In this document: positions 3,855 through 43,600 of the stretch, one piece after another
Layout: each line of letters opens with the position of its first letter
How positions within the stretch are numbered: position 1 is the first letter of the stretch
Assembly (NCBI RefSeq): GCF_949628215.1
Contig: NC_134281.1
Coordinates: 11,542,501 to 11,606,500, forward strand
From: Phalacrocorax aristotelis
Taxonomy: Eukaryota > Chordata > Aves > Suliformes > Phalacrocoracidae
DNA length: 64,000 bases
Reading direction: 5' to 3'
The notes under the pieces: model-generated
What the model was told of the DNA's origin: nothing
Databases searched by the model: none
What the model saw: the letters and a program-made list of their open reading frames with translations, nothing else
Made by a program: the position numbers and the translations under genes

Positions 3855-4340
3855 TTGATATTGCTATGCCTTTGTCAGCAAATCTCAAGTCCTTTCAGAG
3901 AAAGATCAAGTCTTCTCTCAATTGTCTTTTCAATAAGCTGAGTAAGTTGAGCTCCTTTAAGCCTCACATCATGAGGCTTATTTTCCAGTCCCTGGATCAT
4001 TTCTGCAGCTGTCCTTTGAATTCTCTCCAAATACACTGGCATTCTTCTTGAAGCATGGAAACCAAAATTCAATTCCAATATCAGTCTCAGTGTTGCTGTG
4101 TTTATAAGATTACTTTTTTTGCTTCGCATTCCTTTCCCCCACTTTTTATTTTTCTCCTCAATATGCCCAAGAACCACATTAATACTTTTAAATAAAATAC
4201 TGGCCCAAATACCATGTAGAGGCCACAAGCTATAAAGACCTTAAAGCCCTCTGAGCTACTGCTTTCCAAAATGCTGTTCCACAACATATAGTTTTGCTAA
4301 CAAATGCATCACCTTGCAACTGGATGGATTCACATCCTTT
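3855..4340 (-). repeat. Old CR1/L3-like LINE fragment
   Basis: Minus-strand translation still shows ERIQRTAAEMIQGLENKPHD followed by a degraded ...RLKGAQLTQLIEKT. This resembles the C-terminal part of CR1-type ORF2. The plus text (ttgaattctctccaaatacactggcattcttcttgaag) matches the usual CR1 block. No intact frame. Confidence 0.6.
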
Positions 4341-4683
4341 GTTGAAATGCGGCAAAACAATTCACAGCTCCCTAAACATACTTTATTATCCCACTAGTGT
4401 CTCTTTGACAGAAGCTTTATCAAATATTTTATGCTATCCAGACAAAAAGATTCTAAAGAGCAGTAAATTAACAGCTGATTTCATCTCACAACCTTCTATA
4501 AAGCTAGGTGTGTCCTTTCCAAGTCATAATCCCAGACATTTTAGATCTCCACTGTTAATGCAATTTTTCCAGCACAACCATTTCTAGTGTCAGTGTACCC
4601 TGCCTTCTTCCTCCCAACTCTTGCCCTCTCCACCCAAACCAGGCATGCCCCCCACACCTCCTACACCCAGTCCAGCTTCCACA

Positions 4684-4830
4684 GAGCCACAGAATAATCC
4701 AGGTTGGAAGGGACCACTGGAGGTTCACTGACTGAAACCCCCTCCTCTCCCCAAAGTGGGGCCGACTTGGATTGGGTTGCTCACAACATTGCTCATTTCT
4801 TCTCCAGGGCCACTAAGTGTTTGTGTAACT
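4684..4830 (-). repeat. CR1 3' tail remnant
   Basis: Short CR1-like tail on the minus strand: cacagaataatccaggttggaagggaccactgga, then ccaaagtggggcc and the block gttgctcacaacattgct. It is diverged and its edges are approximate. Confidence 0.65.
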
Positions 4831-13631: not shown

Positions 13632-13637
13632 TTTATT
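13632..13637 (-). terminator. Candidate poly(A) signal on the minus strand
   Basis: AATAAA (complement of 13,632-13,637) in the context AAAATAAAGACTTTGTTGCATTTC, with a GU-rich stretch downstream. It would fit the 3' end of the transcript starting in the CpG island at about 17.5 kb, or an internal poly(A) signal in a long intron. Other minus-strand AATAAA copies lie near 14,622 and 15,512. Confidence 0.4.
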
Positions 13638-16379
13638 TTAACATCAAACAGCAGTTTAAGTTTCACAGCGGCAACTGAGACTTAATATCTCACATGCTGT
13701 ATGTTTAAACATACATTTAATGCTTTCAACTCTAGTAGTACTGCTACTACATCTTGTATATATATAAAAAAACCTGCCTATTGCAACCTTTCTTATATAC
13801 TGCACATAACACGAGATTTCACTGGCGAGATTTCAGAGTCACACACACAAGCAGCACCAGAGTAAGAACACAAATGTGCATCTGTAATACAGTAATATTG
13901 CCATGAGACCAATGATTTTTGAAGTTTCAAACCTCTGAACGCTCATTATGTTTGTTTTACTATTGCCAGAATAGATAGAAACATTTTTATCTCATCACAT
14001 CATTCAAATTAAGTTTGTAAAAGTCTGATCACCCAAAATGGGAGAAAGAATAGACTGGTCAGGCCAATAAATTACACGGCTGGGACATCACACATTTAGT
14101 TCTCCCTTGTGTGCTTCACACCTGGAACTTTGAATTAAAAATGCCTTTTTTTTTACTTCATCTGGAAAATTCAAATCAGCAGTAGTTGTTTCATCCCCCC
14201 CCCCCCCCCCCAAAAAAAAAAAACCAACAAAAAAACCCCACACATAAGCCTTTGCACACTCTGAGTTGCCAGTTCAATGCCATCTCTTTCCTATGGGTTT
14301 TTTTTCTACCTATTATTTTCAAAATAAGATATGGCTGTAACCGAGTCCTCTTTCTAAAAAGGAATTTAAACGTATGTGGGATTTCACTGCCTCACTTTGG
14401 GGTGGTGAAATCGCAGACAACGTTAGCTAAGGACTATTACTTTCAGGTCACTTGGGATATGACAGTAAACTGAAAAGCCAGGGCCTTGTCAAAGTGGTGC
14501 CAGTTATTCAACAGGATGCAAGGCAGCGGATTAATTCCCCATTATAACATACAGTGAGACTGTAAACAATGCACAGAGACTGTAAACAAAGACTGAGGGA
14601 CCACGAAGACCACTTGCTGTATTTTATTAAACCGAGGAGCTAGTTTTCGTACTCACAAACCCCCAAGTTCCTTACTGTTGGCATGCCACGCCATGCTAGG
14701 CAGTGGATACCACATTCAGCCCCAGCTATGGAGGCATTCTAGGTGGGTTAAAAGTTGCTCACCCCCCTTGTGAAACAACTTGGGTGCTACAGATACTCAA
14801 ATACAAGAGCTACTCAGAGTTTGGCCGCTACCACGTGACTGCTGCCAGTCAAGCAGATTTAAGGGCATGCTTTAATCTCTCTCACATTATTCTGTGGTCC
14901 TAAAATTTTTCCTTCAAGGCTCATGGTAGTTCTGATTTTGGTAACTCAGGCCAGCGCAAGGGGCTCCCCATTAGAGGTGTTAGTTTACAAAGATGGCAGT
15001 TGTTTTCTAATACTAATGTATTCCCATTTCCCACACTGCATACCTCAACTAGCAGTTTCATCTTTAACAAATACACTGGAATACACAGATAGCTCCAAGT
15101 CAACAATACAATATCATACGAACAGCGGCCAGTGCCAAATGGCTGTTAGTTAAGCAGATAAGAAAGGCACTCATTCTTCCTTTGGGGGGGGAAAAAAAGA
15201 AAAAAGGAAGCTATTGCAGTGAAGCAGACAGAGTGTGGGGATAGAAGCTGGCAGATTCCACAATACAGAGTCATGTCAAAAATGGCCTCCTGCAAACTGT
15301 TCCTTCATTAAGCATTTGAGTCAACCAAAAGAGAAGAATCTTCCCCATTATTCACAAGAGGTTTCAACTCCCTATTCCACAGCAGAGCAGCATTTTCTGT
15401 ACATTTTGACATACAGCTGCCCAGGAAGTGCAGAGGGTAAATTTTACTCTGCAGTGGAGGAAAACTCCTCTCACTCCTTTCTGTTTGCAGTCCCAAAGTT
15501 GAGCCGGGCCTTTATTTTGACTGCTCCCTGGTCTGTGAATGGAAAATCCCTTCTCAGCACTAGCAGGCTGGTGTCTGCTGCACACACCCACTGCACACAG
15601 CAGAAATTCCAGTCAATAAGGCAAGTGGGGCCCAGGCGATGGAAGGGGAGGAAGGAGACATACAAACAATAAGGAAAGCATCTGGCTCTGTTACTGGCTG
15701 GAAAGGAGACTGGACTTCAAACGAGACACGACTGCAGCCTTCGCTTAACAGGAAGATCATATCAATTCTCCCTATTCTACTTTTCACATGGACCAAAATA
15801 TCTGGAAAGAGTAACTCGGGGTTTCCAGCCCACACTTTAATGCAATTCCATTAACTCAAGAACAGCGACGAAACCCACCTTGTAGGTTTTTGTCTCACCA
15901 GAGAAAAACATACCCTGGCATCTGCTTTGGACCTGTGGAAACGGCCTGAAAAGTAAAGCCCTTTGCTGAACGCGAGCCAGCCATCTCCCCACCACCACAC
16001 TAATGGAGGCTGCTCTGCTGTCCTTCCCTGGAGATAGCAGCCAAGTCTACTGAAGCTTCTCTCATAGCAACCAGAGCTCCAGAGCCAACAGCAGCTGCTG
16101 TCACTGCCTTCAACGCTTACCCACAGGATCCAGAGCAAAGCAACACCCTCCTCCCTGCACCTCTAGAGAGAGGAAAAAAAAAACCAACCAAAAAACCCAG
16201 AAGGCTGGCGACAAGATGACTTCCTGGGTCAACCACAAGAAGAAGAAGAAAAAAAAAATCCTAGTGTTTCCTATCCAAGTGAAAAGGGGAATCTCCTATT
16301 CTACTGAAGAAATAGTTAATTCCTTTTCTGGGTTTGGGTTTTGCCTTATGGCAGTAACACCCAGCCGGGGAGGGGGGCA
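13638..16379. other. Non-coding stretch between a poly(A) signal and the CpG island
   Basis: No recognisable coding exon. It could be intron and 3' UTR of the minus-strand transcript that starts in the CpG island. One 32-base minus-strand exon-like piece with an ATG (15,914-15,945; acceptor TTTACTTTTCAG, donor CAGG|GTATGT) is possible but unsupported. Confidence 0.5.
14195..14223. repeat. Homopolymer pair C17-A12
   Basis: Seventeen C followed directly by twelve A on the plus strand. Likely length-polymorphic and prone to sequencing error. Confidence 0.95.
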
Positions 16380-17423
16380 ACGGTCTGAAACCCCCGATGT
16401 ATCGGCACACACCGTCGGACACCGAGTTCTCGGAGCCTCGGCGGCATCCTCCACGGGGGAAGAGACCCCGGCTCTCCCACGGCACCATGGCCACAGCCCA
16501 CAGAGCCCCCGCAGCCCCAAGCCCGCCCGAGGACCCCATTTTCTGGCAGCGGACCGGGGGGATACGGCCAGGAAGGAAGGGACTGTGACACCCTCCCCCC
16601 CACCGTTACACCCATTTCCCCGCTTCCATGGGGCCACACGCGGCCTCGCACCTCGCCTCCCTCCGCCCCAGCCCCGGGACGGCGGGAGGCTGCCCGCCGC
16701 CGCTTCCCCGCCCAGTGAGCTCCGGTCACCGGCACCCAAGGACGCAGGCGACGGTGACCTTGTCGGTACCGTCGGAGAGAAGGCGGCGGGAGTCGGAGCG
16801 GGGCCGGGAAGCCCACCCCGCAGCGGCCACGCGTGACGGGAGAGGGGGAAATACGGGAGAATCCACGCCGCAGCCCCCGGAGGCGGGCGGGCGAGCCGGG
16901 GGGGAGCGGGGGGTTACGGAGGGGAAAGACGCCGCAGGGGCACCATGAGAAAGCAGAAAATGCAGGTCAAACACCGCCTCCCCCGGGGCCCGGCGGCTCG
17001 GGGCGGGTGGCGGCGGCGCGGAGGAGGCTGCCCCGGGTGGGACGGCGACTCCCGAGTCGTCCCCCCCCCCGGGACAATAAGGGGATGAATGGGAAGCGGA
17101 GGAGCACAGCCTGCAGCGGGTCCTCCCCGCCGCTCGCCTCCGCCGACAAAGCCCCGCGGCCCCAGCCCCGCACCGGCCCCAACCCGACCACCGCGGGCGG
17201 GCGCGCAGCACCGGAACCGCCATGATGGCCCGGGTCGGCTCGACCCGGGCCACTGCCCCACCGCGGCAGCGGCGGAGCCCTGTGGCCCAGACCCCAGACG
17301 CAGGGCAGTGCGGAGCGCCGGGCAATGCGGAGCGCCGGGCCGCACCGGGACCACCCCACCCCCCCCGCCCCAGCCTTCCCTCCCGCCACCAGGCACGACA
17401 GGTCCCCGCCTCCCCGCGCCTAC

Positions 17424-17600
17424 CTGGCCGGCCCGTTCCCCGGGCCCCCACGCGGCACTAGGCCCGGCTGAGCGCCACGGCGTTTCCTGGGCAGCCGGCG
17501 GGAGCGAGCCCTCGGCGGCGGCCGCGGCGCCAGCGCCAGCCCCTCCCCCTGGCAGCGGCCGCGGCGGCTTCTCCCCAGGCCGGGCGGAAACGGCGCTGGG
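17424..17600 (-). other. Candidate untranslated first exon of an unidentified minus-strand gene
   Basis: The minus-strand donor CCAG|GTAGGCGCG (exon border at 17,424) matches the consensus well and lies downstream of the CCAAT/GC-box cluster. The exon's upper edge (transcription start) is a guess. No convincing open frame runs through it, so it would be 5' UTR. Confidence 0.4.
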
Positions 17601-17737
17601 CGCACGGGGATCCCCGGCGCCGGCGCCAGGGGCGCCCCGGGCACGCCCACTCCCGCTCTCCGTTGGCTACCACGGCTCTAAGCCCCGCCCCGAGGGGCCG
17701 CCCACCGTCCCTAACGCCCCACCTACCCCCTTTTCTC

Positions 17738-17835
17738 ATTGGTTATCTCGCCGCCTTGCCCCGCCCGCGCTCCCGCCTCGTTGGAAACCGCCCATCCACC
17801 CCACCCCTCGCCCCACGGTCCTGGCGCCCCATTGG
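17738..17835 (-). promoter_or_regulatory. Two minus-oriented CCAAT boxes
   Basis: ATTGG at 17,738-17,742 and 17,831-17,835 on the plus strand read AACCAATGAG and TGCCAATGGG on the minus strand. These are NF-Y type contexts, 93 bases apart, upstream of the candidate first exon at about 17.42-17.6 kb. Confidence 0.55.
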
Positions 17836-18094
17836 CACGGGGAGCTGCCAGTCGGCGAGAGGAGAAGGGAGGGAGGGGTGGTGGCGGCGGCCACCAGCGT
17901 CGAGGCGGCGCGGGCGGGCGGGCTGCGGCAGTGCCGCGCTACGTGCCGAGAGGCGGGGCCGGCGGGGCCCGTCACCGCCCCCGCCGAGGCGCTGCTCTCC
18001 GCGGGGTAACTCCCGCGTCGGGACACGTGGCAGAAAGAAGGGGCGGTGCGGCCGGACGGGATTCCTGGGCGGTGGCGGGAGCCGCCGGCTGCGC

Positions 18095-18106
18095 CGCGCA
18101 TGCGCG
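18095..18106. promoter_or_regulatory. Palindromic NRF1 site
   Basis: CGCGCATGCGCG, a perfect palindromic match to the NRF1 consensus, lies inside the CpG island. NRF1 sites are common in bidirectional or TATA-less promoters. A CACGTG E-box lies close by at 18,024-18,029. Confidence 0.6.
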
Positions 18107-18870
18107 GGGCGGGAGGGGAGGATGGGGGAGCGGGGGCCTGCCGCTCCGCACGTCCGCGACGGCGGCGGGGCGGGGTGGGCCTGGGCCAGGGTCCCGGTAG
18201 GGGAGCAGGGGTAGGGACCTCACCCCGCTGCTGTTGCTTCCTTCGCAGGCTAAGCTGCTCTGCCCCGGTGTTCACCCACTCGGCGGGTCCCCCTGAGGCG
18301 AGGAGGGGCAGGACGCGCCAGGGCTGCCGCCTTCCGCACCCCCGCACAGGGGGCCGGCGCGCTGCGGGAGCTCAGAGCCGGCTGGTTCTCCCTTCCCGGA
18401 GCTCCCATAAAGACATGGCGTCGGGCGCTGAGGCGGCTGTGTGAGGCGGTGGAGGGGTGCGGGAGGGACGCTGCGGAGCCAGTGGGTGCCCGGTGCCCGC
18501 GTACCGCCTCTGCCCGGAGAGGGGATGCAGCGCGAGCGGCCGCCCTCCCGGCCGGGGGAAGGCAGGCTGCGCCGCCGGCCCGCCCGCTGCCGGGGAACGG
18601 TGAGGAAGGACGAGCGGGGGCGGGCATGGAGCGGCCCTCAGTGCTCCTACCCCTCGCTTAAACACGACTGCGGGACTGTAGGAAGCTAATTACTGCTCCT
18701 AATTGACGCTGCGCGCGGACTAGAACTAAAGGGACGCTTAAGGAAGGCGAACGGAGCCCCGGTGCGGGAGGAGCGGCGGCGGCCAGCGCCCCGCCGCCGG
18801 GACCGCTCGGAAGGGGGCCGTGTGGCGGCCCGGGGACGGCGGGCGAGGGGAGGTGGGAGGCTGAGGTACC

Positions 18871-18882
18871 GCCGCCATCTTG
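18871..18882. promoter_or_regulatory. YY1 consensus element
   Basis: GCCGCCATCTTG on the plus strand, that is CAAGATGGCGGC on the minus strand: an exact YY1 core-promoter element. Such elements usually sit just downstream of a start site with AAGATGGCGGC in the sense direction, which would favour minus-strand transcription starting near 18.9 kb. A minus-strand ATG overlaps it, but its frame (46 codons) resembles no known protein. Confidence 0.5.
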
Positions 18883-19006
18883 TGCGCAGCGCCCACCCGC
18901 TCGCTGGCCGCTGCGGCGGGGCCGGAGGCCCGCAGAGCTCCGGGGAGCGAGGAGGAGAGGTGGTTCCGGCGGGGGTGCGGGGCCGGGGGTCCCCCCGCGG
19001 GGCCGG

Positions 19007-19194
19007 TCACGGCGGGCTCAGCCAGGCGTGCTGCAGGCACTGGGCGGCTGTGGCGCGGCGCTCGGGAGCGTACCGCAGCGCGGGGAGGAGGAAGGCGGCG
19101 AAGGGAGTAACCTCGTGTTTTGTCCAGTTGTGTCTGTCTGCCAGGATGCTGTGGAGGCTGCGGGGGGAAAGTCTGGAGATACGCAGGAGAGCGC
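19007..19194 (-). CDS. SRPK-like last exon
   Basis: Exon of 188 bp from acceptor CTTTGCTAG to TGA at 19,009-19,007. Encodes [40 protein letters not shown] and QHAWLSPP, matching SRPK [27 protein letters not shown]. Its GC-rich 3' half is part of the CpG island. No canonical AATAAA was seen on this strand between the stop and about 15.5 kb. Confidence 0.94.
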
Positions 19195-22100
19195 CTAGCA
19201 AAGACAGCATAAGCACAGTACCTTAGCTAACACTGGCAGGACCGAGAGGCTACCGCTTCTTGCCCCGTACAATTAATCCAAAGCATCGTGAAGGGTGTCC
19301 TCCCTTCGCCTCTGAACCTTCCTCTCTGTAAGCTTCACCTGCACTGCCCCTTGCAGGTTTGGCTCACGGGTGTTTATCAGAAATAATCTTTCCAAGCTAG
19401 TGTTTCGAGTCTCCCCATTCCTGAGTACTTTTTAGGTAAGCATGTGCCAGGAGTGAATGAAGTGTTCCCAGAACAGCCATGCCAAAGCCACTGCTGCTTG
19501 TTCCCTCTGCCTGTCCACACGCAATCCAGAATGCATCGGGCCATTCCAGTGCCAGAGCTCACAAGACTAAGGTTTAATATGGTTTGTGCCTGCTAGCTCC
19601 CTGGGGCCCAGAGGAGTGCCACTACTGACCGAGAAGCTGTTCTGGTCCCCAGGAGTATGTGGTGTAAATGTAGTGATTCAGGTCAGGCCGCTTTGGTTCA
19701 CATGGGGAATGAATATAGAACAAGAACTAGTTTTGACTAATTTCTTTTGAGTGCCATAGAAGGAATAAGCGTGAGCAAAGGATATGCATGTGCGGGGAGG
19801 TGCTTGTTCAGCTGCAGCGTGGGACTAGCACTCAGCATGGAATGAATGGTGGGTTGGCTGAGGCTGTGTGGCTAGTGAGCGTTGAAAGCTGAGAAGAAGG
19901 AGGATGGACTAAATTGCAGAAGGATGGAGTCATGTGATGACTTGGAAGTCAAAGACAAGGATTTCAAGCATCATGAGTCAAAGGGAAAGGAATCAGGGAG
20001 AATAAAACAGAAGAGATGTTACAGTTGGGTCAGAAGACTAAATATAGCAGCCATGTTGGAAGGATATGAGTGTCCCATTCCTGATCATCGTTCTCTGCCA
20101 GTGAACGGGTGAAACCCAGCCAGTTACACACTCTTCAGCCTTCCTGGCATGTAGCCATTTCCTGTCCATATTTCCATTCTCTCTAAATCCAAAGGAGAAA
20201 GAATGGAAATGTTTTTCCCTGTTGGGTGTTTGCTATGACCATTCTTCAGGATTTTGCATTCACCCCTGGCACGCTCCTGGCTTGCAAAGGTAGGCAGGGC
20301 AGGGAGCATTGGTGCTCTTTATGAAATTGCCACTTGTGTTCTGTCCTGCTTGTAGCCTGTGTTGTGTAATGTAACTTTGGGGGGCTTTCAGTGTGAGCTG
20401 AGTAGCAGCGTGTCAAGAGAGTCACAGCAATTTTTAGAATAAGCTTCCTTACTCCAATTCTTACCTGGCCTGCTGAAAAATTTTGTTGACTTGTTCCAGG
20501 AGAAAGCAATTTGAGGAGGAATTCTTCCCAGGAGCTCAATAATAAGAGCAACGTGATCTAGCCAGAGGGAGTGAAGATAGACACATCTAGATACAAGGAC
20601 TGTGACACTTGTTTCAGTGAAACGAATAAAACTGATGGAGTCCTACCATCATCTCTGGAGAAATACTTCCCAGGTTGAGGATCAAATAGACACTCCCCAG
20701 TTGCCATTTCAAATGCCTAGAAATGGAGTAGCATTGTTAATTCACTAACTGATGGGGAATTTTTCTTCTCCATTAACTGATAGTACCCATTTCCCTTGCT
20801 ATCACACAAAACTGATCCTAAAACGTGGACGTGGTCACACTGGTTTGATCCATACTGTGGTGAAACAGCACCTTTAACTCATCAGGGTGAAAAGCAGTGT
20901 GTGCCTGCTTCAGTCACGCCTATGAGTTAACATACTCAGAGTGTGAATTGCCTTATCGCTTAAACTAATTAAAAGTGAATTTTATCAGCAGCATACTTTC
21001 AATGCAAAGTGAATGAGTGCAGACAGCCCCTTTCTCCTCTGCAAGGAAGCCTTGCTCCCCACGTGGGTGGGAGCCGAGGACACGCTGCCTTGGCCTGTTA
21101 GTGTTGGTCACCCCCTACGCACACACAGTGTCCTCCCCATCCTACCAGGCAGCCTGTGCTCCAGATATCTGCAGGTGTGCCGTAGTCTAATCCCAGAAGC
21201 ACTTCCAGGGCACGGTACGGCTGGGTCTGTATCTCCTTGGAAAAAGGCTTGTACTGAAACAGAAACAAACTCCCTTTGGTTAGCCTCCATAAACGGGCAA
21301 CAGCAACACTTGCGGTCGCGAGCTTCCCGCACAGCGAGGAGGACGCTGCAGGGCAGAACCAAATGTGTGTGTGAAACTGCGCACGGCACGGCAGGCATGG
21401 TCTTGGCCCTGCTGACACCACGGGGGAATTTATCTCCCAACATTTCACATTGAACACAGTGTTGAATTTCTAACTGTGGGGGCTAACTGCAGGCTAAAAA
21501 ATGTCCAGAGTTGACTGTCTCCAGGATTCCAGGGGCCAGCTCTGAGCTGGGAATGCTGAGTGTAGCATCACCCAAATCACACCTGAAATAGCTGTTCAGG
21601 TGTAAAAGCACAGACACCCCAGGTGGGATGGGAAGCACACAGCATCCCGCATTGACACGGGATGGAGACTTGGACCAGACTCACTGTCCAGCATGCGCTG
21701 CCCAGATCTGCAATTTTCACTTCTATGCTCATTAAATCCAATTCTTCCAAACGATTCCCAAGATCACCTCCTAGATGGAGAGGACAGAGAGAAATCAGGT
21801 CCTTCCAAACCAACAGGTACGCATCACTTACCTCAGGAGAGGCACATAGGCCTGCCTCTCAAGTTTTTCGACCTAAAAGCTCAAACTGCTTTTTATCATC
21901 AATAGAATACCACCTCTGTTGTTTGAAGAAGCATCAAGGAGGAGCTGGTATCCAGCCAAAATCTAAGAGGACGTTTGAGGGGACAGTAGCTTGGAGTAGA
22001 GTGGTGTGACCATGTGTTCCTGTCCTGCTGCAAGGTTCCTCTAGTGCCGATGTTGAATACTGTGGGCCCAGAGGAAAGCACATCCTACCAGCAGTAGTCA

Positions 22101-25100
22101 GACACAAAATGTCTGTTATGCCTCTGTAGCCTTCAGCATTCCTGGCTGTCACAGGCCTCAGACACAGCCTGCTTGGCAAGCACCGTAAAGGTTATGTTTT
22201 TATTTGACCCTGGAAAAGGGTAATTTTTGGTGTACTGCTTTACAGTGAGCTGTACATCTGTGCCTAATACTGTGTCTTTGTTCTCTGAGCAAGACTCAGT
22301 CACTAAGTTAGCATTCCCCAATTGCCCCAGAGTTTGAGAGACAAAACGGGACCGTCATGGGAGAAACGATCATGGGAGAACATTGTGCGAGGAAAATATT
22401 AAGGGTCTCATTGCTGGGATATAAGCTGATCTCTTGAGAAACTTTACAGCCCTATGTCTTGTTCAATATTGACACCATTCTCTGCAAATAAATTGTGCCT
22501 TAAAAGGCCTTGAAGATTAGCAGTATGTACAAGTCTTCCACAAACCTCAGAAGCGGGAAATAAAGAGCCAAAGTGTCACACAGCTTTTTTGAGCAAGTAT
22601 GTAAAGCTCTCTGTGGCTGAAAACAACAGACACGCTGGAGCTATCCTGTACCTAAAGCTAGAAGAATGAGCTCCGTGGTCATGGTGGGGCTGTTAACGGA
22701 TGCCTGTGATCTCTAGTTGTCCTCCCCACAACCCTACCTGTGAGACCACGTTTCTGTAGGTGCCTTGAGTAGCTTGTAGCTGCTCGTCCTGATGTTTGTA
22801 CTGATCAGAGATGGGAGAGGGCCCTCAGCAGCATAAGATGGCTGTACTGTTTTGTACTGGCTGTTGCAGGAGATGGGAACTCTATTTCCCTCCTGGCAAT
22901 AAACACACAAGTCCCTTTTCTTTTTAAAATCCCCCCTGGAGCACTCACCTGGTCCTTTTAGCCTTAAATCTGTTCTCTGGTCACAGTCGAGCATATCAGG
23001 CAGGAGCCTTTGGAGGCTTTTGACCTGTCCGTACAGCAAGATGTTCTCCGGTTTGATGTCGGCATGGATGATGTGGCAGCGCTTGTGCAGGAAGTGCAGC
23101 CCTGCCAGCACCTGGGTGAGCAGGCGGCAAGTCACGTCAGCCATGCCAGGGTCCCCACCAGCCCCCCTGCCCCAGCAGCCATCAGAGCAGTCAGGCACAG
23201 CAGAAATGCAAGTTGTGGATGTTCTGGTATTGGAGAAAGGGGACACTGATGATAACTGTCTGCAGTAAATTATTTCTGTGTAGCAAGTGCCCTGTATGAA
23301 GCCGGAGGTGCAGCCAGCAGAGCGGCGACGTTGGCTGGGGTGGCTCTGCGGGAGCAGGCATCAGGGGTTTCATTGCGAGAGGCGGCTGCAGGAGCCGGTG
23401 CCGGAGCCCCATGTGCCCAGTGTGGCGAGTGAGGGTGTGCCTGGGGAGCCCAGCAGGGAAGGGACGGTTTGGGGGAGGCAGAGGTGACATGCGGCAGAAG
23501 GCGGCATGAAAATAGATGGGTGTCAGCACAGATGAGCTAAGCCCAGAGAGACAGAAAGTGGATAGGGTTACGAGGAGGCGTTATGATCACAAAGCTGAAC
23601 TTTCTCCTGAAAAAAAACCACCCCTGTTTGTGTGGCTGTTCTGTCTTGGGCCCGCCATGCCTTCCTGCTGATTATTATTCAAATGGAAGTTGGGGGCTGG
23701 TTCAGAGCAACATGGCACAGGAGGGCGTCCCATTATAGGAGGAAAGACAAGGAGGTGCAGCATAACCCAGACAGGAGGAGGGAGAGATGATGAGTGACTG
23801 CGTGTAAAGAGAACTTAAGGGTAGTGCTGGAGAGCCATGTAGGGAAAGAACAGCTTATGACAGAGCAGGGAGAGTCTGGCCTGTCACAGGGGAGAGATGA
23901 CGCCTACCAGAGAGAAACAGTCGCTATCGGAAATCAATAACAGCAAAAACGCTGCTGGGGGTGGTGCAATTTTTGTTTTTTTCAACATTCTGGTAAGTCA
24001 TAAAGGACTGGCAAATATTCTCTGTATTATCAAATTCTATTCTGGGATGAGCACCAGCCCCGGGGAAATACCAACCTTAAATGGTAACTGTGAAACACGG
24101 GGAAAGATTTAAATAGCTAAACTGGAATGAATCAGAAGTAAATACTGCCCCAGTGCTGATCTGGAGGGGAAAAAGGATTCTGAGATTTTACAATTAAAGC
24201 AGGTCAGGGAATGCATCAAGCAAAAGGCTTGGGTGTGAAATGGGGTATGTAGATTAATGCCGCTGCTTTTTTGTATGACTTATTCAGGTGTTAGTGGAGC
24301 GTCTGTATAGGAAGAAGAGGCTACTCCAGAAAACAGGATAAAGGAGGAAGCAGTTTTCTTTCTTAGTGTCCCTAGAAGGGCTCAGGAATCAGGGTGGCAA
24401 ATCTCCTTCTTGGCAAGTGTGCAGACTTCTGATAAATCTCAGCGCAAGAGGCAAAATGAATTCTAAATATTCTGAGGCCTCACTCAGGTTTCCCACTCCT
24501 TAACTATTCTCAACCGATGCATAAGAAACTCAGTTTTCAGGGTCTTTTTGGTCAGCACACCACATCCTTACAGGGGATGAAGGAAGAGTTGGCTCTGAGC
24601 AGGAAAACCTCAACGTGGGTGGAGGACCAGCTGACCAAACCAGCAATTTAGAAAGCCCTGGAAAGACATCAGTGCTGAGGGAGCCCTCGAGCAGCCTTTG
24701 GTGGAACCATGCAGAAAGCTGCTGGATCTGCCAGCACTCCCGCAGCTGGATGCCGAGGGGAATGCCAGCAGGTCTGGCACTGCTGCCAGAGGGGACTTCT
24801 AAGGGTGGTGGGAGGGCAGAGAGACACACGGTTTGCCCACAAGAAGCATAACTATGGCAGGCTGTTTGTCCCTCTGCTACTCCTGCAAGAAGCAGAAGTG
24901 TGGGACACCTTGATGATTACTGAGATGAGGGGAACACAGGTGCCACCCCTGAGTCCCTGGTGTGGGTCTGCAGGCTGCTGACTCCTTGTGGTGGTGGTGC
25001 TGACTCCTTCCCAAACCTGATGAGACTACAGGCTTGGGCAGTAGCGTGCAGTGCCCCTGTATTAACAGGAGTGTGACGACTTCCCACATTTTATTTAATG

Positions 25101-28100
25101 TTTTCTCTCCTTTTACCCAAAAGAAACAGTTACTGGTTTTTAGTTGCCTTGGGCACTCACTATGCATTGTCCCTTTCTTTGCAGATGCAGCCATGGAATT
25201 CATGGCAGATGACCCCAGGATGAAGACTATGGCATGTCCCCTGGCCAACAGTCCCTTGGTGCCCTCACCCAGTTCCAGCTAACTTCTCACCTGCTGTAAA
25301 GATTTTTTCACAAAAGGCAATGGCAGTCCCTGGGCTGTGTAGTTGCCCATCAGGCATCGCAGGGAAGGACCCAGCACCTCAAATACCAAGCACACATGTG
25401 GGAAGAGTCAGGGATTCACTAACAGAAGATTCTACCGCCAGCCTTTTCCCCCTCACCAGAGCAGCGCAAGTATCTCCTTATCCAACCTGTCCCCTCCAGT
25501 CACCTCCATGTGCCCCTGTCCAGCTCATCCTCCTCACAGCAGGACAGCGCTCAGCTTTACACCATCCTGCAACTGTCTGGGGCAAGCCCCAGCTTTGCTG
25601 ACCCAGCGCTGCAGCACTCTCAGCAGAAGGATATGGAAGCCGTTTTCTCCAATCATTCTGAAGTTGTCTAACAAAGAGATGATGTTTTCTCCTGCCTGGT
25701 CCTTCTTCTTCATACTGCTCACCTGGGGGAGGATTCCAAGAAAGCTGCAGTTAGAGACATATATAAGCACAAGGACATGTTGTACCCGTTTTGTCCCATT
25801 CTACAGACTTTCTCTTCTAGGAGCTGGCACTTCATGACAAATCCCATGAAAACAGCATCAGGAAAAACAGGCTCCAAACACACAAGTCTGTTACCAAGGA
25901 ATGAGTTTCTGTATGTTGTCCAGCTCGTGGCCAGGTGGGACCATCACCTTCACAGTGTCTGAATAACTCAAACTGATCCTGCTAATAGTGCCTAGAACAC
26001 TTTCCACTGCTTATTCTACCCCATGCAGGCCCAGAAGGTGCTCCTGCTTGTGCTGGAAGGGGATTCCCCCAAGAACACGCTCCCTGCTCCCAGAAGCAAT
26101 GGCTGTCCATTTCTTTTGCCCCTCTGCACCCTCTGCTCCTTGTCCTCAGAGTGGGGATGGCACTGTCCCTGCTCCGCTGAGAGCAGCAGGTGGGACATCA
26201 CCTTTTAAAACCCACCCCTTCCCTTCAGCAATTTCTTGCAAGGGCGTGCAGAAAGGCAGAGACCTTGTGGTTGTCTTCAGCCACTTGAATCATAGAATCA
26301 TTGAATCATTAAGGTTGTAAAAGACCTCTAGGATCATCACATTCAACCATCAACCCGACACCACCGTGCCTCCTAAACCATGCCCTGAAGTGCCGCATCT
26401 ACATGCTTCTTGAACACCTCCAGGGATGGTGACTCCACCACCTCTCTGGGCAGCCTGTTCCAGTGCCTAAACACTCTTTCAGTAAACAAATTTTTCCTAA
26501 TACCCAATCTAAACCTCCCCTGATGCAGCTTGAGGCCATTTCCTCTCATCCTATTGCTGGTGACTTGGGAGAAGAGACCAACACCCACCTCGCTACAGCC
26601 TCCTTTCAGGTAGTTTTAGAGAGCAATAAGGTCTCCCCTCGGCCTTCTCTTAAAGGAGGCTACCTGTCCTATCAGGTGGAGAGCAGCTTCCACGCCTGGA
26701 GGAAACCAGCAAACTAGGCTTCTTTGGGCTGAAAAAGGGTTATCTATGGGCAACTACTGCAGAAATCTAGAAGATATGGAGTCGTGGTGGAAGGAGTGAA
26801 CACAGGTCTTTCGTACAAGAACCAAGGGGCATAAAACCTAGCACTTGGGAGGTTCAAAAACAAAGCTGAGGAGATGGGTCTTCACGCAGCACCTGGGTAA
26901 TTGGTGGCAGTTCTTGGTTGTCACAGGGTGCTGCAGCTGCTGAAACCAATAGGCCTCTTCAAGGTAAAGCCATTGAGAATTACTGCCCACACAGGCCTCA
27001 CCCTTGGCCCAAGACATTTCCAGCTGGAAGCTGCTGTGGGCCAGGGGAGCATTCAGTGGGAGCAGTACCCTGTGCTTAGCTTGTCTGTACACCCATCTGG
27101 ATATCTGCTGCTGGCCCAGGGTGCTGGGCTAGGTGAAGCCCCGGTCTGCCCAAGCATAGGTGCTGCAGTACCCCCAGCTCTTGCACCAGCCCTGTAGACC
27201 CGCATGGCAAGGTGTATCGGGAGTTTGCTCCCACAGAGCACTGATTGTGGTACAGGATCCTTCCTCTTCACAGCCATAACTGTCAGGATTTTGGTTTGGT
27301 GTGCTGTGCAGCTGCCGATCCGCCTGCACCAGTGCCAGGAGGTTCGTGCTGGTATGACAGAGGTGAGCAGCCATGGAAGCAGGGGAGACCAGATCACCTC
27401 TCCTGGCAGCTCTGCAGGCACCGACCACCTCATGCTGGTGGGAACAGCCCTGGGAACCAGCTACATTGTGCTGAACAGAAGGCGTGTCTTTCAGAGTGAG
27501 TTAGTAATAAATTAAGAGTAAGGCTCGGTCTATACGCAGGATTGTGCTGATGTGTAGAAAAGCAGCCCTCTGATTACATTAAATTAGTGCCACTTGGTAC
27601 TTCCTCTTGCATCACGAAGTCTGGCTCACGTCCGTTTGGACAGGGCCTCCAGATTTACAGGTGCAAACAAAACCTTTCTCAAACCTGTTGGAGAAAGGCC
27701 TCAGAGTAATTTGAAATGCAAAAATTAATGGCTTTTACTCATCTAAAGCTGATGTAACTTTGTATTTAGGCAAACTGGAAGAATTCTAACCACGAACTTT
27801 CTAGAACTAGCAGGTCAAGCCACCTTCAAAGGCTGAGACCCAGATACAGGCACCTAATTACCACATCCATTAGCAAAGGTAGGAGGAAGCTTTCTGACTG
27901 CAGAGTTTTATTACATTTTTGCTACATCCTGCCTTTTTTTTTTTTAGATATTTGCTTTTACTTCAGTATCAGTGTTGTGACAGAGGAATGCCCTCTGAGC
28001 TGTGAACAACACAGATAAAATGGACACACTCCCATCTCCTGTTTAGGAATATTACTTCTTTTTTTTCTGTTAGTTATCTGCCTTATCTTTCTGCGGGTGC

Positions 28101-29301
28101 CTCCAATTTACTGTATTTTGGTCTCTGCTAAAAGAAATGGGCTGACAGGGCAAGTGGGGCACAGCCAGTGTGTCCCATCACGACAGGAGAAAGGAGACGG
28201 TGCCTGTTTCTGAAGCCAGTGCTGAGGCAAGGTGAATACCATGATCATCTAACTTTTTTGGGGGGTTGTTTTCTGCTCCTCAGACTGAGACCTGGAGGGA
28301 GAAGGGATGATGAGACTGATATACTCAGACCTGAACTCAGTGGTCATCCCCGCGGAGCAAACACAGAGACCCAGAGTGTACATACACAGTGGAGGAGAGC
28401 GACCTCATCCTGGGCAGCCTCAGCAAAGCCTTCTCTGCTTTTCAGGACCTTCACAGCTACGTGTTTCTTCCTCCTGGGAAATGAATCACAGCTGCCAGCC
28501 AACATGTGCCAGTGTGGCCCTAACCAGCAGCACCTCCCCTTCTTCCAGGCACCCAGCCCTGGGCCCATGGGTGGCCACTGCCCTCTGACAGCCAGCCTTG
28601 CCCATGGTCTGCAGCACACCAGGCCCGTGGGCACCCCTCCAGCGATGCTGCTGGCATCTGGCAGCACAGCCTCCCCAGGGACCAGCAAGGGACTGCAGAG
28701 AAAAAGGCAGAGCATGGACACTGCAGGGTGTAAACAAGAAGAGCAAATGCAGTGGAAGGGCTGAGCCCACCTCATTTACGTTCTTTGGTTTCCAGGGAGC
28801 AGCTCTGCTTGTTGCACCCCAGCAATCTTGCCGCCAGGTTTGCCCCATGCTCAGGGGATGCCAGTGTGCTCCCAGGCAGGCAGCTGGTCTCCGCTGCTTC
28901 TGCCAGAGGGGCAGGTCCTACCCAGGAGATCAGCCTTCCCACCTCCGCAAAAGACCGTCAGCTCCTCACCTTGTGTCCTGGCACAGCCAGACGGTGGCAA
29001 AGGTGCCACAGCCCAGCTTGCGCAGAGCCTGGTATCGCATGTTGAACACCTCTCCTTCCCGTGTGGGGTGGTGGCCTCCTGCGGGGACCATTGTCAAAAG
29101 ACGTTACTGACATCTCTAAATGTGCTTAGACTAAAAGAGCAGCTGAGGACAGCTCTCCTCCCGGAGGAGGAGCAGCTGGACAGGTCCCGGCAGCCTCCTC
29201 TGGCCTGGGAAAAGCCTGGCACTATCTTGACTGTGGAGCCGTGCGCCTGAGGACTGACCTGTGCGCTGGGCTGCTGGCACCTCCTGCACCTGCTCCTCCA
29301 T
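19007..29301 (-). CDS. Compact SRPK-family protein kinase (11 coding exons, 380 residues, complete)
   Basis: Expected to phosphorylate serines in Arg-Ser repeats of SR splicing factors. Eleven exons join in frame from ATG (29,299-29,301) to TGA (19,007-19,009). Visible: SRPK lead-in [16 protein letters not shown] (residues 15-30), glycine loop LGCGTFATV (36-44), ATP lysine K59, helix-C E74, SRPK blocks [12 protein letters not shown] and VCLVFEVLG, catalytic loop HADIKPEN (161-168, Asp163), DLG (Asp221), YRALEVL replacing APE, ADIWS, SRPK C-terminal insert [20 protein letters not shown] and the final [15 protein letters not shown]. All catalytic residues are present and no frame is broken. Oddities: only about 14 residues precede the SRPK core, and the insert between kinase lobes is about 45 residues instead of the usual couple of hundred. 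An in-frame TGA lies 12 codons upstream of the ATG. One intron looks U12-type AT-AC. It lies directly downstream of PLXNB1 on the same strand. It may be called SRPK3-like; orthology to SRPK1, 2 or 3 cannot be settled here. Confidence 0.9.
20465..20557 (-). CDS. SRPK-like exon 10
   Basis: Exon of 93 bp encoding [20 protein letters not shown] and [10 protein letters not shown]. It matches [20 protein letters not shown]...KYSKEFFTK. Acceptor CTCTGGCTAG, donor CCAG|GTAAGA. Confidence 0.92.
20647..20716 (-). CDS. SRPK-like exon 9: start of C-lobe insert
   Basis: Exon of 70 bp encoding [20 protein letters not shown] and RDD plus one base, matching SRPK [24 protein letters not shown]. Acceptor CCATTTCTAG, donor GATG|GTAGGA. 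Confidence 0.93.
21146..21253 (-). CDS. SRPK-like exon 8: activation segment
   Basis: Exon of 108 bp (36 codons, phase 0/0) encoding [20 protein letters not shown] and [16 protein letters not shown]. It matches [37 protein letters not shown]. Confidence 0.95.
21685..21770 (-). CDS. SRPK-like exon 7: DLG motif
   Basis: Exon of 86 bp encoding [20 protein letters not shown] and [11 protein letters not shown] replaces DFG, as in all SRPKs (KIADLGNACW). Acceptor CTCCATCTAG, donor ACA|GTGAGT. Confidence 0.94.
22949..23111 (-). CDS. SRPK-like exon 6: catalytic loop and shortened spacer
   Basis: Exon of 163 bp encoding [20 protein letters not shown] and PENILLYG. A short spacer of no recognisable motif follows ([20 protein letters not shown]). 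SRPKs have HTDIKPEN; the Thr-to-Ala change leaves catalytic Asp163, Lys165 and Asn168 intact. Most of the kinase's spacer insert is missing here. Confidence 0.94.
25291..25397 (-). CDS. SRPK-like exon 5: hinge region
   Basis: Exon of 107 bp encoding [20 protein letters not shown] and [15 protein letters not shown], matching SRPK [35 protein letters not shown]. Preceded by an AC, not AG, 3' splice site. Donor CAG|GTGAGA. Confidence 0.93.
25398..25634 (-). other. Predicted U12-type (AT-AC) intron in the SRPK-like gene
   Basis: Read on the minus strand, the 237-base intron begins ATATCCTT, the exact minor-spliceosome 5' splice site, and ends ...CTCTTCCCAC (AC terminus). A branch-site-like TCCCTGAC (complement of 25,407-25,414) places its branch A about 10 bases from the 3' end, the short spacing typical of U12 introns. 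The intron is phase 1 and joining its ends restores the SRPK consensus. Confidence 0.85.
25635..25722 (-). CDS. SRPK-like exon 4, ends at the predicted AT-AC intron
   Basis: Exon of 88 bp, acceptor CCTCCCCCAG. Encodes [20 protein letters not shown] and FRMIGENGF plus the first base of a His codon. No GT donor keeps the SRPK alignment. The border ...GGCTTCC|ATATCCTT does, giving [14 protein letters not shown] across the junction. Confidence 0.9.
26287..26650 (-). repeat. CR1 LINE 3' fragment in an SRPK-like intron
   Basis: Minus-strand-oriented CR1 tail: the low end carries the CR1 3'-terminal octamer repeat (complement of catagaatcattgaatcatt). The body retains the end of CR1 ORF2, readable on the minus strand as [20 protein letters not shown]. 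It is 5'-truncated, as most avian CR1 copies are. Confidence 0.92.
28386..28473 (-). CDS. SRPK-like exon 3: ATP-binding lysine and helix C
   Basis: Exon of 88 bp encoding [20 protein letters not shown] and QDEVALLHC, matching SRPK FVAMKVVKSAEHYTETALDE. Acceptor TTTCCCAG, donor TGT|GTATGT. Confidence 0.93.
28970..29078 (-). CDS. SRPK-like exon 2: glycine-rich loop
   Basis: Exon of 109 bp, acceptor GTCCCCGCAG, donor CAAG|GTGAGG. Encodes [20 protein letters not shown] and [15 protein letters not shown], aligned with SRPK1 [32 protein letters not shown]. Confidence 0.92.
29259..29301 (-). CDS. SRPK-like exon 1 (start codon)
   Basis: Encodes [14 protein letters not shown] plus one base of Gly15. 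The ATG sits in GTGCCATGG, a good Kozak context. An in-frame TGA lies 36 to 34 bases upstream, so the start cannot move further 5' within this exon. Donor ACAG|GTCAGT. The start is well supported only if no coding exon is spliced in further upstream. Confidence 0.72.
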
Positions 29302-37540: not shown

Positions 37541-37645
37541 TCACAAATCTGTGACTTTATTCTCTACAGCTGCTGCAATCTGTTGTAGTCTGTATCCGAG
37601 CTGCATCTTCTGTGCCGTTGGGTCTTCTTCCAAGGCAGTAATGAT
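37541..37645 (-). CDS. PLXNB1: PLXNB1 last coding exon with PDZ-ligand C-terminus
   Basis: Exon of 105 bp (34 residues plus TGA) encoding [20 protein letters not shown] and [14 protein letters not shown]. The final VTDL is the class I PDZ ligand by which B plexins bind PDZ-RhoGEF and LARG. The stop codon is the complement of 37,541-37,543. Confidence 0.98.
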
Positions 37646-40600
37646 CTGCAATGAGACAGAGCTCACCGGCAGCCCTTCTCCAGCACACAACACTGCCAGC
37701 CAGCTCACCGCCATGCACAGTGGGGATCCCCGAGCTGGAATCCAGCATGCTCAAGACTAGAGTGGGTATGTAGTAATTAATCTCAAATTAACCACAAAAT
37801 AAGTATTCTAGATTCGTCCTAATAATTTATAAACTTTATAGTGCAAAAAAACCTTCTCACCTGAAAATGATATCTTCAGTAAATGAACCTGAACTAACTG
37901 CATTTCTTTTTAGGTGGAGCATTTGGATACCAGAGTCAAAAAAAAAAAAGAAGCGTACATGAAATCCCAACAGCCACCAAGTTAGAGATAAGTTCTTTTT
38001 TATGATTTCCTCCCTCCCTCTTTGATAAGAATAAAGCAAACTTATGACATGGAAGTTATGCATGCCAATGAAACAGATCGCAGCATTGTAATAGTCTGGC
38101 TGCTCTTAATTATTAATCTTTGGAGGTTTTCTGATTGGATGGTAAAAGGAGAAGGCATGTTCATACCTGCTGGAAACACACACTCACCTGGTCATAGTAT
38201 TTATTGATGTATTTGTACAATTCGTGTAGAGCCACCAGGGAATTGAGGTCACCTGAGTAATTCTGAATAAAAGAGGAAGTTAGACAAAACCTTGAGACAC
38301 CTAACCATTGTTCTTTTAAGTTCTGCATCCTCACAACTCATTAGGAAACGTGCCTGTTGCACAAAGCTACAGGAAAGGAATTCACCAACGGTTCCTAGCA
38401 ACGGAAAAATCACACGTACTCCTTGCCCTGAAAACCTGACTACACTTTTCAGCACTAGCTGGGCAGACCCTCACCCTCCCAGTGGTGCCACAAAGCAGAG
38501 CAGCCACTGGGAACGGTCAGTACATCTGAGCAGAACTGAATGCTCAGCTGGACTATCTCATCTTTGCATTACTAATGTTCTCTCGGATGCACAGGTGAGG
38601 GGTCAGGGTGACTTCTGAAATAGTTTTATTTACCCGTGATAGCTCAGCCAGGGCAGAGTTCATCTCCTGGTCACTGGCAGAGATGGTCTGACGAATGTCC
38701 GCATAATACCTACGCAGTGGTACACAGACAATTAGCACATTGTTCCTCCCAGCCTCCTTCTTACCGCTTGAACTGCGACTCCTCACATTCACTGCTTACC
38801 TTTCCACCATCTGCTTGTAGCGAGGAATGTCCCGGGCATAGAGCAGCTTATTGATCGGAGAGTCCTTGAACATCCAAAACCAGAATTGATTACACAAAGC
38901 TCCTTCCTCATGCTGTGGACTAACCTTAGCAGGTAACACCATCACCGCTGTTTTCTGTCATTCATTCAGGATTGGGAACTTTTGTCCTCTGCATGGAGAG
39001 GCACTTAAAATACCAGGCTCCCTTCTAGTAACGCAGTCTGAGGAACCATGAGATGTGTGGGTGAAAGGACCTCTGGGGTCCCTAGGCCCAAGTGAAGGCC
39101 TTTCACTTGGGAGCTGAGTGATCCCCAGCATGAGATCACATTGGCTATGGCTTTGCATAGCTGATTCCTGAAGACGTCCAGAGATCCACCCATCCCATCT
39201 CTGGTGGGATGTTCCACCCTTAGTACAGGGTGAGGCACGGTGGTAAAAAGTTTTTCTAGTGGCCAACCTCGATCTCCCAAGCTGCATCCTGTGACTTACA
39301 CTGCCACAGCCAGCTAAAGTTTAGCTCTGTCCCCCAAGTAGCTGAAGGCTGTAAATAAAGAGCACCCCTCAACAACTTCTGTACAGAAGTAGTATTTGTA
39401 TGCTAAACAAAGTCTCTTCTCTCTCCCCAGGAGTCCCCATTACTCTCTGGTGCTCCAGTGGCACATGGGAGCAAGGATGGGCCTGGCCGTCTCTCCCAGC
39501 AGTGCTACATAAGCATTATTGCCTTCCTGGTGCAGCACTGCTTGACTCTCTGTGCCAAGCACACTCCCTTCTCCCTCTGTACTTACCCGCCCTAACTTAT
39601 GGTCAGCTATCGTACAGGAGTCCATGAAGGTCTGCGCAATGACCAGGAGCACAGCATCTACGTTATCTGACGTCTGCACATCAAAAACAAACTGGGGATT
39701 CTTGATGATGTTGATCCAGAACCGCAGGGGCAGGCTGTGGAGAAGACGGAAACACACCAGGGTATCAGCAAAGGCAGCAGCTACGGTGCTGAAAGATATT
39801 CTGCACCTTTCAGCTTTGCCCTCCCAGCAAAACCAGCTTTTCTGCTGCCTTGCACTCCCATTTTGCTCCTCCTCAGTAGGCAAAGGTGGCTGTCGCTTTC
39901 AAGCGATCAGCTTAGTGCCTCCTCTGGGGCCCAGAGGAACACCATACCTGTTTGTCTTCCAGATATGGATGGTCTCAGGGTCTGCAATCCCATAGTGTAT
40001 TGCCTGCTCATCCAACAGGTCAAAGAAGTATTTGACCGCCAGAGGGACAGGGCGGTTGGTACTGAGGATCACCTGGAATAAGTCATCCACAAACTTCTGC
40101 AGAGTGCCCTGTGAAGAACCGAGCAGGACTGAGTCAGCATAGGCAGAGGAGAGTGGAGAGCCCCGGCCTCACGCAGGTGAGAGGTGACCCTCTGTGGGTC
40201 AGCAACCTCCCCTCCACTGCAGGGAACAGCAGCAGAGGAGAAGAGGCCCCAGTGGTTTATGGAATAGAGGCCAGGGAAAAGCTCATGAACAAAGTGAAAT
40301 GTAGGGGGGAGTCAGATGCACTTGGAACCACTGCAGGTAAAGGGCATTGCTACAGGGGAGAGAGCTTACAACAGGATGGAATGGCACTGAACTGTAGAGA
40401 CTGCACTGAACTGTAGAGACCTCCTAGCAGAGCGGGACTGCTGGCTGCCAGCAGCTGTATTCAGCCAGACAGAAACAAGAAGGGGTTTGCTCAGCAGCAA
40501 GAGGAAGTTCAGTAAATGTGAGAAGAGCACAAGCACTGCCTGGCAAAGTGCCTGGGCTGTCCCCTGAGGGATGGTACTACTCCAAGCAGGGCATTGCTGG

Positions 40601-43600
40601 GGAACCTGGATGCCAAAAGCTGATCCTTTCTTGAGAACAGAGCAGACACACAAGTTCCTGGGTCAATTTTTTAACAATGACACTGTAATAAGGCAAAAAG
40701 GAGAATGCGAGCAGGCATTATGCCTGATTTATGACGGCAGCTGAATCTGTGCATGGCTGGTATGTACTATTAACATCATCTTGCTGCAGCAGGTAACAGG
40801 TCAGTCGATCTTTTGGCCTTGGGTGGGTGAAAGGTGAGCAGACATGGCAGACCAGTGGACACTGCTGCCAAAGAAACTCTGCTGCAAAGCACAGGGTACC
40901 TGCTTTTTTCTGTGGGACACACAACAACAAACATGGGGTGGACACAGGGATAAAACCATTTCTTACTCTCCTAGCAGCTCTGCAAAATGTAACCCATTAG
41001 TAGAAGTCTGGCACTGCAGTGCTGGATCGGAAAGGAAACAACCAGCATGTACAGAAGCCCAGGTAAAGGCGCTCTTCATTGTCATACACATCCCTGCAAT
41101 CTGCCAGGGACATGAAGGAAGGCAAGATCCAGAGCACAACGCAATCTGCGCTTCTTCTCACCTTCATTGAGAGTAGACGTGTCAGATAGATCTCCGGGAT
41201 TGCCTTGGCTCGCTCCCGATCTCTTAAGCTCCCACGCCGATGCTTGGGAAGCTCTGGCTCTTCTGTTGGTTTTACCAGGTGCCAAAGTTTGATCCCACCT
41301 TCATCTGCATCCTCCAGCATTGGTGTTTCTAAAACAAGCAATTGTTTACAGATGAGTGTCAGTTCTCTTGGAGTAGAGCTTGGCCAGGTGAGCCCCAAGG
41401 AAGCAAGATTTCACAGTATGATAGAAACACAAATGGGAAGGAACCTCTGGAGGTCTCTATCCAGCCTTCTGCACAGAGTACAACTGTTGCTTGTACTACA
41501 GCAGGTTGCCTTTGTCCACCCAAAACCTTCAAGGTCTTGCAAACTTCCCCAGACAGAGATCCCCCACTACCCCAGTGCTCTGTTCCAGGGCTGCATCACC
41601 CTTTTGCTGAAGAGGGATTTTTTTGACATCCAATTTGAATCTGGTAAGCTGCAGCCTGTGGCTACTGTCCCTGGCACCACAGGAGTACCCATGGAGCTGT
41701 TTGCTCTGCCAGGCAGTAAGGTAACTGCCTGGTGACCCATCACCACCCTCAGGCCATGCTCAGCACCTGAGGGTATTAAGATCGTGCTCCACCCTAGGGA
41801 GTCAGAACTAGAGAATTGTCCTTATCCTGCATTTTCATGCTCAGTGTGGCTTTCCTCCGTTCTTACGCTCTTTTGCTTTTCTGTCATCTCGCCTGCCCAA
41901 GCTTTCAGTATTCTGACAATCCTATGAGGGTCCAAATTGTGTATCAGCCTTCTATAGCAGCATAAAGCTGGGGCTATGGCAAGAGACCTGTCTCCCTAAG
42001 TGACAAGTGCTATAAAATAATTTTATGAGAACAGGACATCAAACTCACTCTCTCCTGGGATGTAATCCTGATTCTCCCTATGGATGTGCTTGGTCAGGCG
42101 TGGGACCAGTGCTACTGTTGCTCCATCAGGCACCTGCACACAAGCAAAAATCAATGTTCAAAACAAATGGCATATTTCTCATCAGTGCAATGGGCAAGTG
42201 TTTGTAGACCGAAACAGACTCTACCATGACTAGAAACAGGGACAGGAACTGGGATTCTGGGGTACCATCACTGTCTTTCCTGATGGTGGGGGAATCTTAT
42301 TTGTACCAATTAAAAAACTGATGTGCAAAATACGATGAAGACTATAATACTCAGGGTCTGAGGTCAATCACATCTACAGCATGTTGCAGCAAGGTATGAC
42401 ATATTGGTGCAAGATATGACACGTTGGTGCAAAGTAGTTAAAAAACCTCCTCTTTCCATTCCTAGAAGCTACTGCGTAGATCAGTGCGCCATCACCTGCT
42501 AACCCATTTGGACTGGAACATTAACAGATCCAGCAGCATCACCTTCACTGCAACAGCCATCAGGCATGAACTTGGTGTCTCCTTCCAAGCCCTGCACCTC
42601 AGGTACAGGTTAAGAAGGGGGCTATGCTTGTGGAAGTCAGAGTGCAGGCCACAGCACTGGCTTAATTTGAACATGCTGCTGCAAGAAAGCTCCAACCTTT
42701 TGGCAGTGATCCGAGCAGGAGCCAGAGCCACAAATAGAGCATAGCAGTGTGGAAAAGACAAGAGGAGACACGAGGCAATGGTAGACTGAATTCTGACCTT
42801 GTAATGCTGAAGAGTATTCAGGCGTTTCCAAGTTCCTTGAACAACAGATGTCACATCCTCATCGGACAGTATCAGATGACCTGCCAGCCCCGATCTCCAC
42901 TCTACAGCCATTAAAACACAGAAAAATGAAAAGATAAACTCTTAAGTTGAGGCGTCTCTGAAGTCTGTTGTGCTTCAACCTGAACTAGTAGAACCCTATG
43001 CCAGAGAAGACTAATGCTCAAGCTACATTAGCATCATGGAAGGGCTGGGACTTCATCAGCCCAACACTCAGGGAATAGGAGAAGGGTCCCATGGACACAC
43101 TGTTATGGTGCACACATCCAAACCATCTGTGTACGTAACCCACCCAGGATTAATTTTCTGTACATAAATCCCTTGCATCTACTGGCACTGAGGTTTTTTT
43201 ACCCAGTTATCGAATAACAAAATCTTCTTCTGCAGCTTTTCAGAGACCGCTTCAGGTTTGACTGTCCTGAATAAAAGGGGGCATGATTTGCCAATTCAGT
43301 CTAACGACCACCTTGAAGGAAGAGGATTAACAGAAAAGTCTTTAATGTCAGATATTTTCTCCATTTTTAAAGGCACTGAGTCACATATCAGCCTTCTCTT
43401 CAACAAGCTGAATATGTTAGGCTCTTAACCCCTTTCAGGTTTGCCTTCCATCCCCAGGATAATTCAAAGTTCTTTGTACTTGTCTCTGTTATTTCCATAT
43501 TCCCCTGGAGAGTGAGCAGCAAAATCTGGTCCTAGTAGTAGCCCTGCCTCAGCTCACAGCACCTATGAGATCACTGCCTTACTTTGACCTGCCGTATCCC

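Follow-up and report, generated by a model that had tools for sequence, protein, structure and literature searches.

Which member of the SRPK family, a group of strongly conserved splicing kinases, lies beside a plexin gene in the genome of Phalacrocorax aristotelis, and is it an intact gene or one in decay? The question arises from a stretch of 64,000 nucleotides (NC_134281.1, positions 11,542,501 to 11,606,500; hereafter the window), on whose minus strand 11 exons between 29301 and 19007 join in frame to 1143 nt including the stop codon and encode an SRPK-type kinase of 380 amino acids (Table 1). This is the structure that an earlier note had read from the letters, with the same exon count, length and frame, and it contains neither stop codons nor frameshifts. 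Nine of the ten introns have GT...AG ends and the remaining one, intron 4 between exons 4 and 5, has AT...AC ends; with ten introns, the gene cannot be a retrocopy. Within intron 3, at 26280-26720, a CR1-like repeat can be read, which points to a bird genome.

Table 1. Features of the kinase gene and its surroundings (window positions)
Feature	Position	Strand	Remarks
PLXNB1 exons, intracellular part	37544..47144	-	same strand as the SRPK gene and upstream of it
SRPK exon 1	29259..29301	-	residues 1-14; start codon context GCCATGG
SRPK exon 2	28970..29078	-	glycine loop GCGTFATV
SRPK exon 3	28386..28473	-	VAVK lysine and alpha-C glutamate
SRPK exon 4	25635..25722	-	3' end adjoins the U12-type donor
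Intron 4	25398..25634	-	U12-type AT-AC; donor ATATCCTT, branch site TCCCTGAC, acceptor CCCAC
SRPK exon 5	25291..25397	-	hinge
SRPK exon 6	22949..23111	-	catalytic loop HADIKPEN; reduced spacer begins
SRPK exon 7	21685..21770	-	reduced spacer ends; DLG motif
SRPK exon 8	21146..21253	-	YRALEVLLG and ADIWST
SRPK exon 9	20647..20716	-	docking position 548 (E); position 561 (R)
SRPK exon 10	20465..20557	-	docking positions 564 (D; codon split over exons 9/10) and 571 (E); position 568 (L)
SRPK exon 11	19007..19194	-	docking position 615 (R); end of C-lobe; stop codon
CpG island	16250..19250	.	500-base windows with GC 0.64-0.79 and CpG o/e 0.72-0.96; last SRPK exon runs into the island

Judged by the consensus for U12 donors and branch sites, intron 4 (25634-25398) has the donor, the branch site and the spacing of a U12-type intron, with an AC acceptor that ends 17 bases from the first base of the branch site TCCCTGAC. 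The minus strand of the window has three copies of the donor motif ATATCCTT, at 25634, 20067 and 19785, and the plus strand has none. The combined branch-plus-acceptor pattern is found at a single minus-strand site within the gene, which is intron 4 itself, and at five sites along the plus strand of the entire window. Since SRPK1 appears in a preprint's table of U12-intron-containing genes (PMC12637451), an AT-AC intron of this type may be a trait of the SRPK family.

Among the best 60 of 388 matches in the PDB, the predicted protein scored 380 bits against SRPK1 (best E-value to an SRPK1 chain 8.8e-113), 373 against SRPK2 and 291 against yeast Sky1p; DYRK and CLK, related CMGC kinases that likewise have no long spacer, reached at most 134 bits, the best of them a DYRK. 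Pfam assigned Pkinase (2.8e-37) and, more weakly, PK_Tyr_Ser-Thr. For alignment, tree and column counts we used SRPK1, SRPK2 and Sky1p together with a human SRPK3 sequence. Over the 330 ungapped columns shared with human SRPK1, SRPK2, SRPK3 and Sky1p, core identity of the window kinase is 50.9% to SRPK1, 49.7% to SRPK2, 52.4% to SRPK3 and 43.6% to Sky1p. The yeast enzyme shares this kinase core, yet at 53.6-55.8% it is nearer to the three human SRPKs than the window kinase is (49.7-52.4%); between human SRPK1 and SRPK2 core identity reaches 81.8%. Estimated branches are 0.96-1.14 substitutions per site for the window kinase and 0.87-1.08 for Sky1p. Among the 91 columns that vary between human SRPK1, SRPK2 and SRPK3, the window kinase matches none of the three in 48, SRPK3 alone in 11, SRPK1 alone in 10, SRPK2 alone in 1 and pairs in 21. 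The similarity to SRPKs is far greater than chance would give, the window gene is an SRPK-derived, apparently intact protein-coding kinase gene, and the earlier view of a fast-evolving gene of this lineage is supported. The human SRPK3 sequence agrees with a published description on length (567), H159, T458 and E529 (PMC10055661).

The catalytic residues said earlier to be in place were indeed found at all ten landmarks checked. Also real in the alignment are HAD for HTD and the altered hinge, which had been listed as departures from otherwise fixed positions; the third, YRALEVL for YRSLEVL, is present but less unusual than claimed, as human SRPK3 has YRAVEVL at this site. Among the altered invariants are three P-loop changes (W38C, H40T, S42A), T162A preceding the catalytic Asp, and R239Q. 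Glutamine occupies the R515 site, which belongs to a basic pocket, and R518 and R561 are retained. From the P-loop GCGTFA in place of GWGHFS, this glutamine and the new hinge, a shift in substrate or inhibitor preference seems likely enough to suggest. The key residues of the SRPK substrate groove are D548, D564, E571 and K615 (PMC10878513, PMC11211491), and the corresponding E/D/E/R of the window kinase comprise two identical and two conservative residues. Position 568, where the difference between Leu in SRPK1 and His in SRPK2 has been tied to processivity (PMC11211491), is leucine as in SRPK1.

The spacer between the kinase lobes comprises 46 residues, and the long spacer of the SRPK family is absent, which is why we class the gene as a variant rather than an ordinary member. 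With human spacers as queries, tblastn revealed no spacer exon between exons 6 and 7 on the minus strand. Apart from exon 2 and exon 7, human N-termini and spacers matched stretches rich in proline or in GC (best E 4.6e-6, with composition statistics off) and scattered weak sites (E 0.3-5), none of them on the minus strand between exons 6 and 7, and overlooked spacer or N-terminal exons were rejected. Compared with human SRPK1, the window kinase is alike in core identity, docking groove, L568 and the listing of SRPK1 as a U12-intron gene, and differs from its GWGHFS P-loop, HTD, R515 and the 272 residues between its lobes. Human SRPK3, which is X-linked (Xq28) and adjoins PLXNB3, resembles it in the kinase core, in some SRPK3-like residues and in having a plexin-B neighbour; it differs in a spacer of 185 residues and in the identity of that plexin, and the branch of the window gene is far longer.

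The plexin that the earlier note had named as PLXNB1 is indeed this gene: the protein encoded in the window scored 1046 bits against the solved Plexin-B1 and 716 against Plexin-B2. Its last codon, at 37544, lies about 8.2 kb ahead of the kinase start. PLXNB3 was ruled out as its identity on the same scores, with 18 matches that include no PLXNB3 chain; a plexin-B intracellular probe, that of PLXNB3, was 50-77% identical to the individual plexin pieces. Minus-strand segments of predicted coding potential extend to about 62 kb, beyond the PLXNB1 intracellular exons, and three long open frames in these plexin-side segments had no Pfam match. At 61185-62078 on the minus strand, in the extracellular part of the plexin, there is a long Ser/Thr/Pro-rich, mucin-like open frame, again with no Pfam match; PLXNB1 has a proline-rich insert.

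Human PLXNB3 and SRPK3 are arranged head-to-tail, and human PLXNB1 is not known to have an SRPK neighbour. In frog, mouse and human alike, SLC6A8b is followed downstream by PLXNB3 and SRPK3 (PMC13264567), and a published list groups SRPK1-3 as a three-member family of 2R ohnologues (PMC4042849). A duplication of a PLXNB-SRPK pair in the early vertebrate genome would explain the PLXNB1 and the PLXNB3 neighbourhoods alike, and the window gene is probably the sister that SRPK3 acquired by whole-genome duplication, linked to PLXNB1. The fuller reading, for which we have a modest preference, is that of an intact PLXNB1-linked SRPK that stems from this duplicated pair (the PLXNB3-linked copy being SRPK3) and that would be SRPK-like, mainly nuclear and not chaperone-gated. 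Of the paralogous neighbours expected of a 2R ohnolog, PLXNB1 is present on one side, and no convincing exon appears in the 16 kb that flank the gene opposite to it.

A parallel is offered by SLC6A8. The surroundings of USP19, LAMB2, CCDC71 and QARS1 correspond to the human 3p21 region of PLXNB1. Near these four genes on chromosome 12 chicken is reported to have SLC6A8a only, and no SLC6A8b (PMC13264567). The retention of SLC6A8a in chicken versus SLC6A8b in frog, mouse and human is the same kind of exchange that we propose for SRPK. More generally, birds and mammals keep different paralogues, and SLC6A8 was named among the genes that birds lack, its loss being one for which a paralogue might make up (Lovell et al., PMC4290089). 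PLXNB3 has likewise been listed as absent from birds, though an annotation of it exists in one chicken assembly or more (PMC11061957). This annotation counts against an ohnolog, as do the view of the SLC6A8 authors that the duplication of that gene was local and not genome-wide (PMC13264567) and a statement that chicken possesses all three of SRPK1, SRPK2 and SRPK3 (PMC8369645). Among the papers listed in our literature searches none was seen to describe a PLXNB1-linked SRPK, and the gene may be annotated already; the term 'srpk' is absent from the main texts of Lovell 2014 and PMC12954441.

The same report of three SRPKs in chicken would fit a different reading, namely that the window gene is the true SRPK3 orthologue of its lineage, strongly changed and now beside PLXNB1. 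The highest core identity, to SRPK3, and SRPK3-like residues such as YRA, IPP and CLQH agree with it, as does the unconstrained maximum likelihood tree of the window kinase, the three human SRPKs and Sky1p, which placed the window kinase beside SRPK3 (bootstraps 38 and 46, that of the SRPK3 position being 38) and oddly paired SRPK2 with Sky1p. In the bootstrap consensus the window kinase stood outside all three human SRPKs (52), and this was also the best of the six topologies compared in an AU test, from which the maximum likelihood tree was absent (0.63). The SRPK3-sister topologies scored 0.43 and 0.51 and the SRPK1-sister topology 0.14; a sister of SRPK2 (0.009) and a sister of SRPK2 plus SRPK3 (0.038) were rejected. 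The five-sequence tree thus neither supports nor refutes an ohnolog origin. Instead of the PLXNB3 expected next to an SRPK3 orthologue, the neighbour is PLXNB1, and this linkage favours a separate locus over an SRPK3 in another place. A same-strand tandem behind a clear PLXNB1 is what an ohnologous pair predicts, whereas SRPK3 could have come to lie beside the ohnologous plexin only by coincidence, and ten columns match SRPK1 alone. We therefore regard SRPK3 orthology as rather unlikely.

On the left side of the kinase, the CpG island that the last exon enters is probably a promoter of the next gene. Near 18870 on the plus strand, GCCGCCATCTTG resembles a YY1-type promoter motif facing left. 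Given the island and this motif, the 3' UTR of the kinase may run through the promoter of another gene. None of four kinds of poly(A)-signal hexamer occurs within 3 kb past the kinase stop; the nearest on the minus strand are ATTAAA at 15836 and AATAAA at 15511. Positions 1-16000 form an AT-richer stretch of 16 kb with no convincing coding exon of a left neighbour on either strand, perhaps a large first intron. Rfam yielded no match, and Pfam none for six long open frames.

That the gene is not a decaying pseudogene, as stated in the earlier note, is favoured by the open frame, by the splice sites including those of the U12 intron, and by selective retention of invariant residues. Of the columns invariant in yeast and the three human SRPKs, 121/162 are kept, compared with 26/77 of those invariant in the human proteins only (Fisher p 2.4e-9); without the SRPK3 sequence the counts are 124/170 versus 29/100 (p 2.4e-12). 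Neutral drift would not spare residues shared by yeast and human, and this difference is a mark of selection on the protein over much of the gene's history. The 41/162 yeast-human invariants that are altered argue for a changed or relaxed constraint, and they would also suit an ohnolog that lost its function recently, with a frame that is open but unexpressed or encodes an inactive kinase. In neutral simulations that started from the window coding sequence and allowed substitutions but no indels (300 runs per identity level), the frame was still free of stops in 101/300 runs at 95% identity, 41/300 at 90%, 4/300 at 85% and 9/300 at 80%, and in 0/300 each at 70, 60 and 50%. Death of the gene could thus be recent; the stop codon inside the CpG island without a near poly(A) signal points in the same direction. 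Against recent loss stand the intact splice sites of all ten introns, the U12 intron among them, and the complete set of catalytic landmarks, and we consider it distinctly improbable. An origin by duplication of SRPK1 or SRPK2 within this lineage, with a chance landing beside PLXNB1, would agree with the AU value of the SRPK1-sister topology and with the leucine at position 568, but is very improbable, since a young copy would be expected to be far closer than 50% identity, the SRPK2-sister topology is rejected and a known PLXNB-SRPK neighbourhood is repeated.

Returning to an intact, PLXNB1-linked sister of SRPK3, its product would act like an SRPK, always active and serine-phosphorylating, and would hold arginine/serine-rich substrates in its acidic groove. 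The spacer of SRPK1 anchors the kinase to cytoplasmic Hsp70/90 complexes (PMC9818988), and deletion of the SRPK spacer shifts the kinase to the nucleus, the spacer being not critical to catalysis when the N-terminus is intact (PMC10952393). The N-terminus of the window kinase is short, so that catalysis without a spacer is not assured on this ground. With the cytoplasm-anchoring spacer nearly gone, a mainly nuclear kinase that is not gated by chaperones would be expected; catalysis, substrate class and location of such an ungated SR-protein kinase are what we infer from the sequence.

New in this analysis are the U12 intron, the loss of the spacer, the divergence beyond yeast, the selection pattern and the likely ohnolog origin. 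More tentatively, it is possible that the gene represents a fourth SRPK of vertebrates, lost in mammals but retained next to PLXNB1 in birds once SRPK3 and PLXNB3 had disappeared there, which without its cytoplasmic anchor diverged beyond the yeast enzyme and became a nuclear splicing kinase of changed specificity. A vertebrate SRPK that is further from the human SRPKs than Sky1p and nearly free of a spacer would be a natural test of the roles of the spacer and of the invariant residues. If birds kept the PLXNB1-linked copy and lost SRPK3, avian and mammalian muscle and brain would depend on different SRPKs, and the label SRPK3 may be wrong for the bird genes that carry it.
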